Positions 1 through 4,716 of a stretch of 64,000 bases of DNA are shown here, in pieces. Position numbers and translations under genes: made by a program. The notes beneath the pieces were generated by a model. The model worked only from the letters and a program-made list of their open reading frames with translations, made no database searches and was not told the origin of the DNA. Position 1 is the stretch's first letter. Every line of letters starts with the position of its first letter. The stretch comes from Akkermansia muciniphila (GTDB lineage Bacteria; Verrucomicrobiota; Verrucomicrobiia; Verrucomicrobiales; Akkermansiaceae). The stretch is from assembly GCA_945874895.1 (NCBI GenBank), contig CAMCIC010000010.1, forward strand, positions 1 to 64,000, given 5' to 3'.

Positions 1-149
1 CAAACTCCGTGCCTGGATCCATCACTACAACAACGACAGACCTCACCAATCACTCAAATACCTCTCACCTCACCTATATCACCAACACCTATGCAACCAA
101 GCAGCCTAATGAACAAAAAAGGCTGTCCAAATCTCAGGGGAGCACTACA
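1..149 (+). mobile_element. Right end of an IS3-family insertion sequence (partial)
   Basis: Seen: the last codons of an IS3-type transposase, then a short untranslated tail and a terminal sequence at 124-149 whose reverse complement starts TGTAGTGCTCCCC and ends in TTGGACA. That is the usual layout of IS3-family inverted repeats (IS150/IS51-like). The left end lies outside the window, so the partner repeat and any target duplication cannot be checked. The element ends inside what looks like a disrupted attC-like site. Confidence 0.75.
2..109 (+). CDS. IS3-family transposase, C-terminal fragment (cut by window edge)
   Basis: The reading frame is open from base 2 and stops with TAA at 107-109. 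It gives 35 residues containing YNNDRPHQSLKYLSP, the very characteristic C-terminal end of the DDE (rve) integrase core of IS3-family OrfB transposases, which cut and join the IS ends. The catalytic Asp-Asp-Glu residues lie upstream, outside the window. The call rests on this single motif plus the correctly placed IS terminal repeat about 15 bases after the stop codon. Whether the full transposase is intact cannot be judged from here. Confidence 0.8.
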   Translation, partial: KLRAWIHHYNNDRPHQSLKYLSPHLYHQHLCNQAA

Positions 150-199
150 AAACATCTAAAAACACAGCGCTGGGTAGTAGTCGGCTTCCCGAATTCACA
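150..199 (-). other. Remnant of a third attC-like site, interrupted by the IS
   Basis: Read on the minus strand, directly after the stop codon of the 69-residue gene, are AAGCCG and then GACTACTACCCAGCG. These resemble AAGCCG...ACTACTACCAGC in the conserved half of the two complete attC-like sites in this window. The rest of the site is replaced by IS sequence starting at 149. The match is short and imperfect, so the assignment depends mainly on its position at the 3' end of a cassette gene. Confidence 0.4.
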
Positions 200-409
200 T
201 TATGGCAAGAAATGGAAAAAACTCAGGATACGTCGCCATGCTTCGTCTCCTACCTTGGCTGCATAGTAACTATTCGCAAGTGAAACTACGGCCCATATCG
301 CTATACTCTTTGGAATTCCCAACGGATCGAGTACATATAAAATGATCCCGATGGCAGCGATTGTCCCGAAGAATAGAAATGAGCAGGTAAATCGAACCCA
401 AAATTTCAT
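200..409 (-). CDS. Small membrane protein, third cassette gene
   Basis: A 69-residue protein I do not recognise. It is dominated by two hydrophobic stretches, residues about 8-27 and 32-50, consistent with two transmembrane helices, followed by a short polar, Arg/Phe-containing tail. The start is ATG with a weak GAGAG-type ribosome site. It is preceded by about 75 non-coding bases that begin at the GTCCGGC core of the neighbouring attC-like site, and it is followed by the remnant of another such site. It therefore fits the pattern of one gene per cassette. No promoter of its own is evident. Function unknown. Confidence 0.6.
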   Translation of the reverse strand: MKFWVRFTCSFLFFGTIAAIGIILYVLDPLGIPKSIAIWAVVSLANSYYAAKVGDEAWRRILSFFHFLP

Positions 410-483
410 GCGGTCTCTCGGTGGGATGTTCCTAAGGATATGCGAGGTTTAATCGTTCTTTGATAAAATGGATTACATTTTTT

Positions 484-612
484 GCCGGACGTCAAAGAGC
501 ACGCAACCCTATCAACGAGGGCGCGCGTCGATCGCGGGGTTGAGGCTGTGGTTAGGATAAATCATCGAAACTGAACGGCTGGTAGTAGTTGTCACGGCGC
601 GGCTTGTTCGGC
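484..612 (-). other. attC-like recombination site 2
   Basis: 129 bp bounded by GCCGGAC at 484-490 and GTTCGGC at 606-612, which pair as imperfect R-box arms. The 568-612 half is nearly the same as the corresponding half of site 1 (aacggctggtagt, then cgcggcttgttcgg), whereas the other half is diverged. The stop codon of the adjacent cassette gene lies inside it, as is common for integron cassettes. Arm pairing is clearly weaker than in site 1. Confidence 0.6.
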
Positions 613-897
613 TTGGGTTCTGTTGGCAGTAGCTGCCCTCCCTGACAGTTCCCGAAACCGCATGGCTTCGCATCTCCTCCGTTGGGCACGATTGAGAATG
701 GCTCCCGCAATCACAATGAGTATCCAAAAGAAGACTCCGATGATCGCGATCAAGACCGATATCTCTGGATTGATTAGAGCTCCAATAAGAACTCCGACGC
801 CGATCAGTAAAGCCGTCAGTAACCTTCGAATCGTCCTGAGCTCAGCTGTGACTACCTCTAACCCAGTGTGACTATTGTCTTGAGAGTGATTGTTCAT
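592..897 (-). CDS. Small two-helix membrane protein, second cassette gene
   Basis: A 101-residue protein of unknown family. The start chosen is the ATG at 897 (MNNHSQ), because GGAAG lies a suitable distance upstream and because it begins about 16 bases after the attC-like core GTTCGGC. A longer in-frame start at 930 would fall inside the palindrome. Two strongly hydrophobic segments (residues about 28-46 and 48-69) form a helical hairpin, flanked by a polar N-terminus and an Arg-rich C-terminal tail (NRAQRRR). The stop codon lies within the next attC-like site. Such short orphan membrane proteins are typical cargo of chromosomal integron cassettes, but no function can be assigned. Confidence 0.6.
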   Translation of the reverse strand: MNNHSQDNSHTGLEVVTAELRTIRRLLTALLIGVGVLIGALINPEISVLIAIIGVFFWILIVIAGAILNRAQRRRCEAMRFRELSGRAATANRTQAEQAAP

Positions 898-912
898 GGA
901 ATCTTCCGTTCT

Positions 913-1039
913 GCCGAACGTAAAGCGCACGTGCCACTACCAGCGGCGGCGGTCATCGCTTACGGGTTTGATGTTGTAGTTACGGGAAATCATCTCAACA
1001 GAACGGCTGGTAGTGGTTACGTGGCGCGGCTTGTTCGGT
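913..1039 (-). other. attC-like recombination site 1
   Basis: A 127 bp imperfect palindrome bounded by GCCGAAC (913-919) and GTTCGGT (1033-1039). The outer arms 914-946 and 1004-1038 pair over most of their length: CCGAAC, GCGC, ACGTG and CCACTACCAGC on the left each find their complement on the right, separated by small unpaired spacers. This is the R''-L''/L'-R' architecture of an integron attC site, folded as a hairpin. It sits between the stop codon of one minus-strand gene and the start of the next. It shares about 45 nearly identical bases with site 2. Confidence 0.7.
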
Positions 1040-1046
1040 ATTCTTT

Positions 1047-1487
1047 TTAGGTGCTCCAGTCGAGATAGAGGAACCACCTGCCATCCTTCTCTGTCAATAT
1101 TGCTCTTCTGGTATGGCCGTTGCTGTCATCGAAGAAGATGTGATCCTGAATGATGTGACCATCGGTGGGTGTCCACCACGGAATCCGATCAGGCAATCCT
1201 CCAGTTCTGTTCATTGGCTTGTTTGGAATCGCCAAAATTTGCTTCTCAATACCATCCTTCGCTGCAGATGGAATTTCTATCTTTGCGATGAATGCGGGAT
1301 CCATGGGTCCTTTGTAATAGAAGTTTATGCCCTTCGCTCCCGCAGGCAACTTGATGCCCATGTCTTTCTCTACCATCAGCAGGGTGTCTGCACCAAAATT
1401 CGCCGATCCAAGTTCGTAGTCGGAAGTGCATTTGCCGCATCCCAGGAGACAGATGGCGATCAAGAGAATAGAGGCGATTCGCTGCAT
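1047..1487 (-). CDS. Putative lipoprotein, first cassette gene
   Basis: A 146-residue protein with a lipoprotein signal peptide: MQRIASILLIAICLLGC, with Cys17 as the predicted lipidated residue in LLGC. It would be exported and anchored to a membrane. The mature part is soluble-looking and mixed alpha/beta, with no family I recognise. It begins about 12 bases after a GTTCGGT core (1499-1505) and stops 8 bases before attC-like site 1, so gene and site form one cassette unit. The dense plus-strand overlap in this region is a shadow. Function unknown. Confidence 0.65.
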   Translation of the reverse strand: MQRIASILLIAICLLGCGKCTSDYELGSANFGADTLLMVEKDMGIKLPAGAKGINFYYKGPMDPAFIAKIEIPSAAKDGIEKQILAIPNKPMNRTGGLPDRIPWWTPTDGHIIQDHIFFDDSNGHTRRAILTEKDGRWFLYLDWST

Positions 1488-1498
1488 ATTTTTTTCTT

Positions 1499-1505
1499 AC
1501 CGAAC
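1499..1505 (-). other. Integron-type core site (GTTCGGT) at the head of the array
   Basis: On the minus strand GTTCGGT occurs just before the first cassette gene, the same heptamer that ends attC-like site 1. A weak partner (AGCGAAC, 1632-1638) lies about 130 bp further upstream, but the sequence between shows little arm pairing. It could be an attI-type site or a degenerate attC. No integrase gene is next to it. Confidence 0.45.
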
Positions 1506-1848
1506 AGTCATAATTAGTTCTGTTGCGAATGATATGAAACTCGGGAAAATTGACAAACAAATTTCCCCCTCACTCTGAAACGATTGATTTTCAACCATTT
1601 GTGCGATCGATTCAGATTCATGGATGGTTTTGTTCGCTTGATATTTCGGATGCGTTGATCTAACAGTTATGAAGGGGAATCGCGTCGGCTGGGGACTACG
1701 ATCACCTCGGTTCGTCTTCACGGAGTGCGACCTTGCGTCACGTTCAGATCGCGCCTTGCGTGCCATCCACCCATGATTTTCTCCTGTCGTAGATGCAACG
1801 CGCGGAGGGGGGGTAAAGAGGAATGCCCCCCCTTCCCTCGCTTCACGC
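1506..1848. other. Gene-free stretch between cassette array and dnaA
   Basis: No convincing gene in either direction. An open frame of 89 codons on the minus strand (1497-1766) has low-complexity, Ser/Arg-rich composition and crosses the array boundary, so I do not accept it. The half near 1550-1660 is A/T-rich and the half near dnaA is G-rich (GGAGGGGGGG at 1803-1812). If the array has an attI site or a cassette promoter, it should lie here. Confidence 0.4.
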
Positions 1849-3252
1849 TCAACGACGCAGGGTGGACTCCAGCAGACTCACCAATTCTTTCACGGAGTGA
1901 TCCTTGCCGATCTGGTCGGTGACTTTTTTGCAGGCATGGATCACCGTGCCGTGATCGCGCCCGCCGAAGGCCTCACCGATGTCCATCAGCGATGACTTGG
2001 TGAGCTGGCGGCTGAGATACATCGCCAATTGGCGAGGATAAGCGACGCTGGTGGGACGACGACGGCTCGTCATATCAGCCAGACGCAGGTCGAAATGCTC
2101 GGCTACGGCTTTTTGGATCGCATCAATGGTTACCTGCTTGGTAGCCTCCTCACGCAGGATATCACGCAAGAGATACTCGACTTTTTCGAGCGGAACCATC
2201 TCGCCTGCCAGAGATGCATACGTGGCCACTCTCATCAAAGCACCTTCGAGTCGACGCACGTTGCTGCGGATGTGCTCGGCCAGATAGCGCACGATGGATT
2301 CATCCAGCTTCACTTTCCATTCTTCCATCTTGCGTTGCAAGATCGCGGTGCGCGTTTCCTCGAGAGGTGGTTGCAGTTCGACCGTGAGACCGCATTCAAA
2401 CCGGGAGATGAGACGAGGTTCGAAGGATTTGATTTCGCAAGCAGGACGATCGCAGGTGAGAACGACTTGGCGCTGTCCATCGATGAGGGTATTGAAGGTA
2501 TGGAAAAATTCTTCTTGGGAACGCTCCTTGCCTGCGATGAATTGCACGTCGTCGATCAACATCAGTTCCGCGGTGCGGTAGCGTTTGCGGAATTTTTCTA
2601 GGTCGCCCTTGCGAACAGCATCGATGAACTCGTTCGTGAATTTTTCGCAGGTCAGATACACCACGCGGGCGTTTGGACGCGTGCGCAACCACTCCTGACC
2701 GATGGCTTGCATCAAGTGGGTTTTGCCGAGACCAGGACCACCGTGGATGAACAAGGGATTGTAGCCAACAGCCTTGTGACTCGCGACCGCGCTGCATGCT
2801 GCATGGGCAAATTGGCTGTTACTGCCTACCACGAATCGGCCGAAGTGGAACTGAGGGTTCAATCCAGCGACTTTCAATCGCTTCTCAAGAGGGTGTTCCT
2901 CAGCGCTCACCAAGGAAGTTGAATCGTCAGGTATCAACTCGGAGTTGACCCGCACTGGCGCTGGCTGCACCTCGGTTTCGATAACCGCAAGTATAATCTC
3001 ACGCAAACCATACACTTGCGTGCAGGCATCCAGAAGCTCAGGCCAGTAATTGGTCTCGATCCATACCTGATGAATTTCATTGGGCAGACCGATGGTGATC
3101 TGTTGCTCATCGACGCTGACGATGCGGCTCAGGCGGAACCAACGGTGATATGCATCTGGACTCAGACGTTTCGTGAGAATCTCCTGAACTTGCTGCCATG
3201 ATCCATGCTGTGGGGGGAGTGTTGTTTCATGAGAAGAATGATTGGGTTCCAT
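1849..3252 (-). CDS. dnaA: Chromosomal replication initiator protein DnaA
   Basis: 467 residues from the ATG at 3252; an in-frame GTG at 3285 would add 11 residues with no family support. DnaA binds DnaA boxes at the origin, melts it with ATP and recruits the helicase. Visible domains: N-terminal interaction domain (about 15-90), variable linker (about 95-125), AAA+ module with Walker A GGPGLGKT (171-178) and Walker B LMLIDD (about 230-235), and the C-terminal DNA-binding domain with the DnaA signature GRDHGTVIHACKKV (431-444). Length is normal. It is transcribed alone, with 540 bp of gene-free A/T-rich DNA upstream, and followed by the cassette array. No ribosome-binding site is visible. Confidence 0.97.
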   Translation of the reverse strand: MEPNHSSHETTLPPQHGSWQQVQEILTKRLSPDAYHRWFRLSRIVSVDEQQITIGLPNEIHQVWIETNYWPELLDACTQVYGLREIILAVIETEVQPAPVRVNSELIPDDSTSLVSAEEHPLEKRLKVAGLNPQFHFGRFVVGSNSQFAHAACSAVASHKAVGYNPLFIHGGPGLGKTHLMQAIGQEWLRTRPNARVVYLTCEKFTNEFIDAVRKGDLEKFRKRYRTAELMLIDDVQFIAGKERSQEEFFHTFNTLIDGQRQVVLTCDRPACEIKSFEPRLISRFECGLTVELQPPLEETRTAILQRKMEEWKVKLDESIVRYLAEHIRSNVRRLEGALMRVATYASLAGEMVPLEKVEYLLRDILREEATKQVTIDAIQKAVAEHFDLRLADMTSRRRPTSVAYPRQLAMYLSRQLTKSSLMDIGEAFGGRDHGTVIHACKKVTDQIGKDHSVKELVSLLESTLRR

Positions 3253-3792
3253 TATTTGATTTTTTTTGAAAATTTCGCCAAGCACGATGTTGAAATGACG
3301 ATCGTGGCACTTCCGGCGAGGGGGAGGCTATTACAAAAAAATATGACTCAGAATCAAAAAAAATACAGCGCTTTGCATTCCTCAAACAAAGCTCGCAATC
3401 ATGAGTGTTCCACAACAAAAAAATTTCAAAAAGATTTCACATTCAATGTTAAGATGTCTTAAAATTTCCCCATAAACGTTTTCACAAAAACACGTCTAAG
3501 CCTTGTAAAATGAAGGAAAATTGCATGGCTTCTGAATTTCTAACAGAAAAAACAGGCTACTCGTAAACAATTGTTTGAAGCGTCTGATCGCAAATGGGGA
3601 TAAGTCTGAAAAGCGATGAAATGGCATCCAATTTCCCGAGCTTTTCTGACTCCCATTCGGCACGGGGTAGAGTCAGAAAACCTCTTTGAAATAGAGTCGA
3701 AAAAAACGATGCGATTTTCACGACAGATCAAACACTGGAATGATGAAAAAAATTTCTGGTTCGATCAGAAAGGATCACAAGTGGTGATCGTG
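3253..3792. other. A/T-rich dnaA upstream region, possible origin or regulatory region
   Basis: 540 bp with no credible gene between dnaA and the GH16 gene, both on the minus strand. Bases about 3335-3500 are strongly A/T-rich with A-tracts, as expected for a promoter or unwinding element. One near-match to the DnaA box is present (TGGGGATAA, 3595-3603, against TGTGGATAA), but I see no cluster of boxes. It must hold the dnaA promoter. Calling it oriC would go beyond what I can see. Confidence 0.35.
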
Positions 3793-4716
3793 TCACTTCG
3801 TCTGCGATTGATCATCTCGCTGGCTTGCTGGCGTGTCTTTTTGATAGACTCTCACGTAGTCCACATTCATGGATTTTCCATGGATGGCGTCTGTGACTGG
3901 GCCAGCCCAGTCGACGATGGCAAGGCTGAGCCAAACGGGAGCTGGTCCGTGGCAGATCGTGTTGGGCTCCCGTCGGATTTCCTTGCCATCGTAGTACCAG
4001 ATCAGTTCTCGTTGATTCCACTCGAGACCGTAGATATGGAACTCATCGGCAAGATTGGCCTTTTCTACCATTTGGCTCTTACTCTTGCTCCAGTGCTCAC
4101 CCGACCAATTGTGAATGTTCATGTTGATCCGATTGGGATAGTGCCCCTCGTTGATATCGATCTCAAAGCTCCCTGGTTGATTTCTTGCGATGCCCTGAGT
4201 CATCAACCAGAAGGAATTGTTGGTGCCTTTGGCCTTGGCGTATTGATAGCGGCATTGAAAATATCCATACTGAAATTTCTGCTTCGTCCAAAGACTCGCC
4301 GCAGTCCAATCCTGACCCGCGCGTCGTTCTTTTTTTGCCGTGAGTTTGAGAATGCCTTTTTCTACCTTCGCATTTTCACGCCAGCGACTGCAAAGGATGT
4401 GACCACTGGGACCGTTTTGAAATGCCCACGCCTTCTGCCACACTTTGTCGGGACCATCGAATTCATCCCGAAAGACCAACTTCCACTCCCCCACTGGCAA
4501 TTTCGCTGACACATCCTCAGCTTGGGTAACATTTCCGCCGAAAAAGAACCCGCAAAAAACGAGTCGCAGCCATCGCGTGGAGCATAGAGGCGAAACGATC
4601 TTCTTTGTTAGCCGGATCGGTTCGAGCACATCATGCGCCCCTTCTCTTTTCGCCAACGATCTTGCATTCATAGGGCGAAGGAGAAAAACGAGTCGAAGGA
4701 GAAAAAGCAAGGTCAT
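3793..4716 (-). CDS. Secreted glycoside hydrolase family 16 protein
   Basis: 307 residues. The GH16 signature SFEIDINE is present, with the nucleophile Glu185 and acid/base Glu190. Upstream is the conserved EWKLVFRDEFDG start of the jelly-roll fold (78-88), and HIYGLEWN and the closing MNVDYVRVYQ strand follow. GH16 enzymes cut beta-1,3/1,4-glucans or galactans such as laminarin, agar or carrageenan; the substrate cannot be told here. The N-terminus is unusual: one hydrophobic stretch at 2-14 and a second at about 50-62 ending TQA-ED, which looks like the real signal peptide. The true start may therefore be downstream of the first ATG. It stands alone between dnaA and the leu cluster. Confidence 0.85.
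   Translation of the reverse strand: MTLLFLLRLVFLLRPMNARSLAKREGAHDVLEPIRLTKKIVSPLCSTRWLRLVFCGFFFGGNVTQAEDVSAKLPVGEWKLVFRDEFDGPDKVWQKAWAFQNGPSGHILCSRWRENAKVEKGILKLTAKKERRAGQDWTAASLWTKQKFQYGYFQCRYQYAKAKGTNNSFWLMTQGIARNQPGSFEIDINEGHYPNRINMNIHNWSGEHWSKSKSQMVEKANLADEFHIYGLEWNQRELIWYYDGKEIRREPNTICHGPAPVWLSLAIVDWAGPVTDAIHGKSMNVDYVRVYQKDTPASQRDDQSQTK

Follow-up and report, generated by a model that had tools for sequence, protein, structure and literature searches.

The first 1690 bp of the window (the 64 kb that we analysed, from the start of contig C10) carry on their minus strand what is very probably the attI-side end of a chromosomal integron cassette array that lacks an integrase (a CALIN with attI); the Verrucomicrobiales host has a draft genome that comprises 2.92 Mb in 26 contigs and is 97% complete. 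Starting from attI, the minus strand presents in order attI (1493–1690), cassette 1 (1504–919), cassette 2 (918–490), and a truncated cassette 3; at the end opposite attI, the array meets an insertion sequence at the contig edge. Two attC sites are left in it, both on the minus strand, and one of them (484–612) is defective. The first-pass annotation had proposed here either the margin of a chromosomal integron or a group of attC sites without integrase, with an attC consensus of its own, and our data support this proposal: an attC covariance model matches strongly at 913–1039 (137.9 bits); further copies occur, with 10 sites in the window's own genome and copies in 22 of the 29 genomes searched (own genome counted); and at seven congeneric dnaA loci neither the three array genes nor the attC model finds a match. 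None of the three observations that would speak against the proposal was thus made. That reading had, on the other hand, overlooked the attI-like head, the hybrid state of 484–612, and an intI stub elsewhere in the genome. The features of the region are:

2–110, plus strand: 3' end of an insertion-sequence transposase (rve_3/rve_2 C-terminus; Pfam PF13683, E 4.4e-8), which bounds the array
200–409, minus strand: cassette 3 ORF, 69 aa, with no recognisable attC after it (ORF list)
484–612, minus strand: attC of cassette 2, a hybrid (5' part subtype A, 3' part subtype B) with mismatched arms (R2 101.6 bits; half-site comparison; arm pairing)
592–930, minus strand: cassette 2 ORF, a small membrane-like protein ending in AEQAAP, with its stop in attC 484–612
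913–1039, minus strand: attC of cassette 1, intact (R2 137.9 bits, E 4e-36; fold z −4.1; covariation)
1047–1487, minus strand: cassette 1 ORF, 146 aa, ATG start, no Pfam match (ORF list and Pfam search)
1493–1690, minus strand: putative attI region (type II) with homology to five other congeneric array heads (nhmmer profile, six-sequence alignment, blastn)
1499–1519, minus strand: putative attI core AACTAATTATGACTGTTCGGT (weight matrix, 18.2 bits)
1849–3285, minus strand: dnaA, which flanks attI and lies outside the array (PF00308, E 1.7e-62)

The attC sites were scored with a covariance model, R2, built from an attC alignment that contained no site of the window's own genome. Its search of the 64-kb window gave no convincing site besides 913–1039 and 484–612, and the only extra in an unfiltered scan of positions 1–4000 was a weak reverse-strand echo, as expected of a palindrome; Rfam families gave no window match above the gathering score. 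The repeats reported at first pass at these two places thus exist, both on the minus strand, but the description of both as complete imperfect palindromes is borne out for 913–1039 only. A third, partial copy placed at 150–199 is at chance level, as 90 of 200 shuffles reach its score, and was found by no model.

Site 913–1039 displays the features of an attC: it is an imperfect palindrome with R''/L'' and L'/R' boxes, a conserved stem, an extrahelical base, covariation, and the core GTT in R'. Its boxes on the minus strand are R'' ACCGAAC, spacer AAGCC, L'' GCGC(C)ACG with one extrahelical base, a loop of ~60 nt, L' CGTGCGC, a spacer, and R' GTTCGGC. The textbook R' core is GTTRRRY, from which this site, like many members of the family, departs at the fourth base. 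Compared with shuffled sequences, it folds with a z of −4.1 on the minus strand and −3.6 on the plus strand. Applied to this and 28 other sites, RNAalifold returned unprompted the L''/L' stem with the unpaired L'' base, with compensatory changes in 7 of 16 pairs; when own-genome sites were left out of the alignment, covariation scored 0.225, compared with 0.132 ± 0.013 in shuffles and no more than 0.089 in slid versions. The loop (951–1004 on the minus strand in the window) comprises ~60 nt conserved across genera and families, though predicted to be unpaired.

Palindromic repeats that are dispersed and conserved even in their loop could be read as a REP- or MITE-like family unrelated to integrons. 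We regard this reading as practically untenable, given the asymmetric extrahelical base of L'', the R boxes, and the presence of one ORF per unit on one strand; it is already refuted by the strand specificity of the attI heads described below and by the linkage of the family to intI in G003 and G039. In the congener G003 (contig C51), intI occupies 1716–3008 on the minus strand, an attI core lies at 3256, and an attC of the same family at 3677–3804, ~0.7 kb from the intI coding region. In the one-contig chromosome of G039, 16 of the 17 matches to the attC model fall in two same-strand arrays beside its two intI genes, and the attC sites near intI at loci of G042, G020, G039, and G040 match R2 with E-values of 1e-10 to 1e-12. 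A scan of named genomes with the attC motif matched only Verrucomicrobia/Verrucomicrobiales records, all of them metagenome-assembled.

The second site, 484–612, also scores well (E 6e-26), but its arms are mispaired: z is +1.35 on the minus strand and +0.02 on the plus strand, and the arm duplex reaches −9.4 kcal/mol against a median of −18.5, which ranks it 75th of 85 sites. It is a poor palindrome because its halves come from different attC subtypes. The 5' half most resembles subtype A sites (0.89 to L180:360-488, whose 3' half reaches only 0.68); the 3' half is nearest to sites ending in GCTGATAGGGTTGCGTGCTCTTTGACG, of which the top four reach 0.89–0.92 here and 0.60–0.76 in their 5' halves. 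Moreover, R' is GTCCGGC, with a core GTC instead of GTT. Lacking paired arms and the GTT crossover core, the site was classed as a degenerate hybrid attC and, judging from its sequence, is probably inactive. The simplest account would be recombination or slippage between two attC sites within their conserved loops, which would have deleted the intervening DNA.

Each unit contains one minus-strand ORF (1047–1487, 592–930, and 200–409), as had been annotated. The N-terminus of the cassette 1 product appears lipoprotein-like, and G005 has a homologue with 66% identity, around which no attC occurs for about 1.5 kb. In cassette 2, an ATG at about 897 is a likelier start than the GTG at 930 because the latter falls within the preceding attC, and the ORF terminates within attC 484–612, at a TGA in the L'' box. 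This is a recurrent situation: ORFs run into family attC sites 32 times in one frame versus 4 and 7 times in the others (one site may count in more than one frame), and the commonest frame often ends in EQAAP-stop or EQDASSNH-stop. The attC thus lends many cassette proteins, among them that encoded by 592–930, their C-terminus and stop codon.

The GTTCGGT motif at 1499–1505, noted at first pass as another core, is real, but it represents the 3' end of an attI-like site rather than an attC end. A weight matrix made from ten intI-adjacent attI sites of relatives, whose core consensus is TACKAATAAA(n)ACTGTTCGNC, yields a sole outstanding match in the 64 kb, at 1519–1499 on the minus strand (18.2 bits; runner-up, 7.45), 12 bp before the ATG of cassette 1; the crossover point would fall between G1505 and T1504. 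The likeness extends well beyond this core. A 198-bp nhmmer profile made from the heads of the window, G009:C6, and G009:C22 picked up one further array head each in G007, G006, and G009:C5 (E 5.8e-16, 1.9e-10, and 4.4e-7, respectively), each upstream of an attC and in the same orientation as it; blastn of 1493–1670 matched L129 (E 1e-5), and conservation upstream of attI extends over 100–150 bp or more in many pairs. Segment 1493–1690 is therefore a putative attI on account of where it lies, of its core, and of its recurrence at array heads, so that the attI expected at the head of a complete integron is represented here by sequence and position. No clear case of a type II attI beside intI was found, the best being a match with E 0.02 at one intI-linked locus. 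About 150 bp upstream of the core, at about 1670–1658 on the minus strand, a 13-mer, ATAACTGTTAGAT, is shared unchanged by three type II attI regions and occurs in similar form in others; another CTGTTAG core-like motif lies within it.

The extent of this likeness bears on whether the site was ever an attI platform. Off-target insertion by IntI acting in trans is a published route to CALINs (PMC8618304), and the cassettes might have entered near dnaA at a secondary, attG-like site that resembles attI; the seven congeneric dnaA loci, which show neither the array nor an attI-like site, would fit such an origin. In the relatives examined, the gene order downstream of dnaA differs from that of the window, which speaks neither for nor against insertion. 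However, the similarity exceeds a short core, and chance targets would not share a 198-bp region with five other array heads, which makes this explanation unlikely.

Integrase-less arrays are common in the window's genus. In the own genome, the two other arrays whose heads are assembled also carry the attI core (15.4 bits at C2 and 20.1 bits at C14). Among 37 clusters with assembled upstream sequence, one of which (G003:C51) had contributed to the weight matrix, 25 are preceded, at most 1.7 kb upstream, by a same-strand site scoring 12 bits or more, compared with none on the opposite strand and 0 of 2000 random pieces. In G009, nine places are headed by attI and one intI exceeds the cut-off: an intI-linked attI lies at a contig end (C1), and at least eight attI-like heads lack an intact adjacent intI (L061:4858, L182:3481, L183:3332, L184:1309, L189:1238, L129:2353, L190:2938, and L191:3551).

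Such a distribution raises the possibility, which we put forward tentatively and hold to be less probable than its opposite, of an integron distributed over the genome, in which one IntI exchanges cassettes in trans among many short, attI-headed, intI-less arrays. The best hint comes from the orthologous intI-less attI of C14 (own genome, G000) and G009:C7: their flanks are 88.6% identical over 2047 bp, through just past attI, with no intI, and beyond attI the cassettes differ, only the attC sites still matching. This suggests cassette exchange at attI without an integrase in cis; alternatively, the difference may reflect differential loss from a longer ancestral array. At C14, G003 keeps the upstream gene (89% identity), and homology ends about 190 bp before attI, which leaves no clean empty site; at the sdh locus, where the C2 array lies, the flanking sequences of G003 and G005 fail to span that array.

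A search of the own genome with TIGR02249 gave no intI over the cut-off, and none of the sub-threshold recombinase matches lies on C10, so that no integron-integrase is found near the cluster, as in a CALIN. The tyrosine recombinases of C5, C15, and C1 were rejected as IntI with scores far below the cut-off; that of C7 is truncated where its contig ends, and by eye the part present resembles Xer. By contrast, 25 of 57 genomes searched have an intI over the cut-off, including those of the congeners G002, G003, G008, and G009. The intI with an integron-specific domain that defines a complete chromosomal integron is represented in the own genome only by a 5' stub at another array, that of C2, beside whose attI we found a frameshifted intI N-terminus (two pieces with identities of 57% and 80%, E 8.6e-9; L018:6838-6932, C2 about 138.8 kb). 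The attI region of this array resembles the intI-linked one of G009 as far back as −344. G009:C5 retains 34 residues of the N-terminal part of intI. These remnants indicate that intI was once present and was lost at least at those loci; beside the window attI, no intI remnant was found.

Because the window array runs off the contig end in a 26-contig, 97% complete draft, intI could sit in a gap, and the window might show one arm of a complete integron from which nothing has been lost. Array contigs do break in this group (the window and C2 both begin inside arrays), and CALINs are overestimated in draft assemblies (PMC9024848). Nevertheless, the assembled sequence upstream of attI leads straight into dnaA with no intI, it would be unusual for intI to lie past the distal end of the array, and the hybrid attC 484–612 suggests decay; we consider this explanation improbable. 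In our preferred reading, an integrase-less array with attI, cassettes would have entered through IntI-mediated recombination between the folded bottom strand of attC and attI, with IntI supplied in cis or from another copy, and the later loss of IntI would have left an array that is now mostly frozen.

Integrons have been reported previously in Verrucomicrobiota, and off-target insertion, intI loss, and rearrangement have been proposed as origins of CALINs (PMC8618304), which in Xanthomonas sit at conserved loci (PMC12444791). The window array differs from a CALIN as defined in IntegronFinder (a cluster of attC sites lacking an integron-integrase; Cury et al.) by its attI-like head, by the many such arrays per genome in its genus, and by the hybrid nature of one of its two attC sites. 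Like sedentary chromosomal integrons (Vibrio VCRs, Xanthomonas ilvD), it has a lineage-specific attC consensus of ~127 bp, small ORFs without assigned function, and attI beside the first cassette; unlike them, it lacks intI and belongs to several short dispersed arrays instead of a single long one. IntI insertion at attG, which Loot et al. (2024) reportedly described, likewise places cassettes at dispersed chromosomal positions away from intI, but at a short core only, whereas here a region of 100–200 bp is conserved. In a limited search of the open-access literature, we found no description of several attI-headed, intI-less arrays per genome. The type of array is itself known, and the variant worth following is the recurrence, across the genus, of attI-headed arrays without intI. 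This genus offers a way to address how CALINs arise: most clusters have a recognisable attI, orthologous sites hold different cassettes, and some retain intI stubs, so that the three routes could be separated by comparison and a recombination assay. The many orphaned arrays in close relatives also raise the question of whether one integrase copy could serve several attI sites. The attI weight matrix and the attC model broaden integron annotation in Verrucomicrobiota.

The start of C2 in the own genome (L017:1-2209) holds another array, partly decayed and running off the contig end, which might join the window array across the gap at the insertion sequence. In G039:C1:2265000-2270500 (L148), intI and the cassettes are co-oriented and attI follows the intI 3' end (an inverse layout), while the layout in G003 is divergent.
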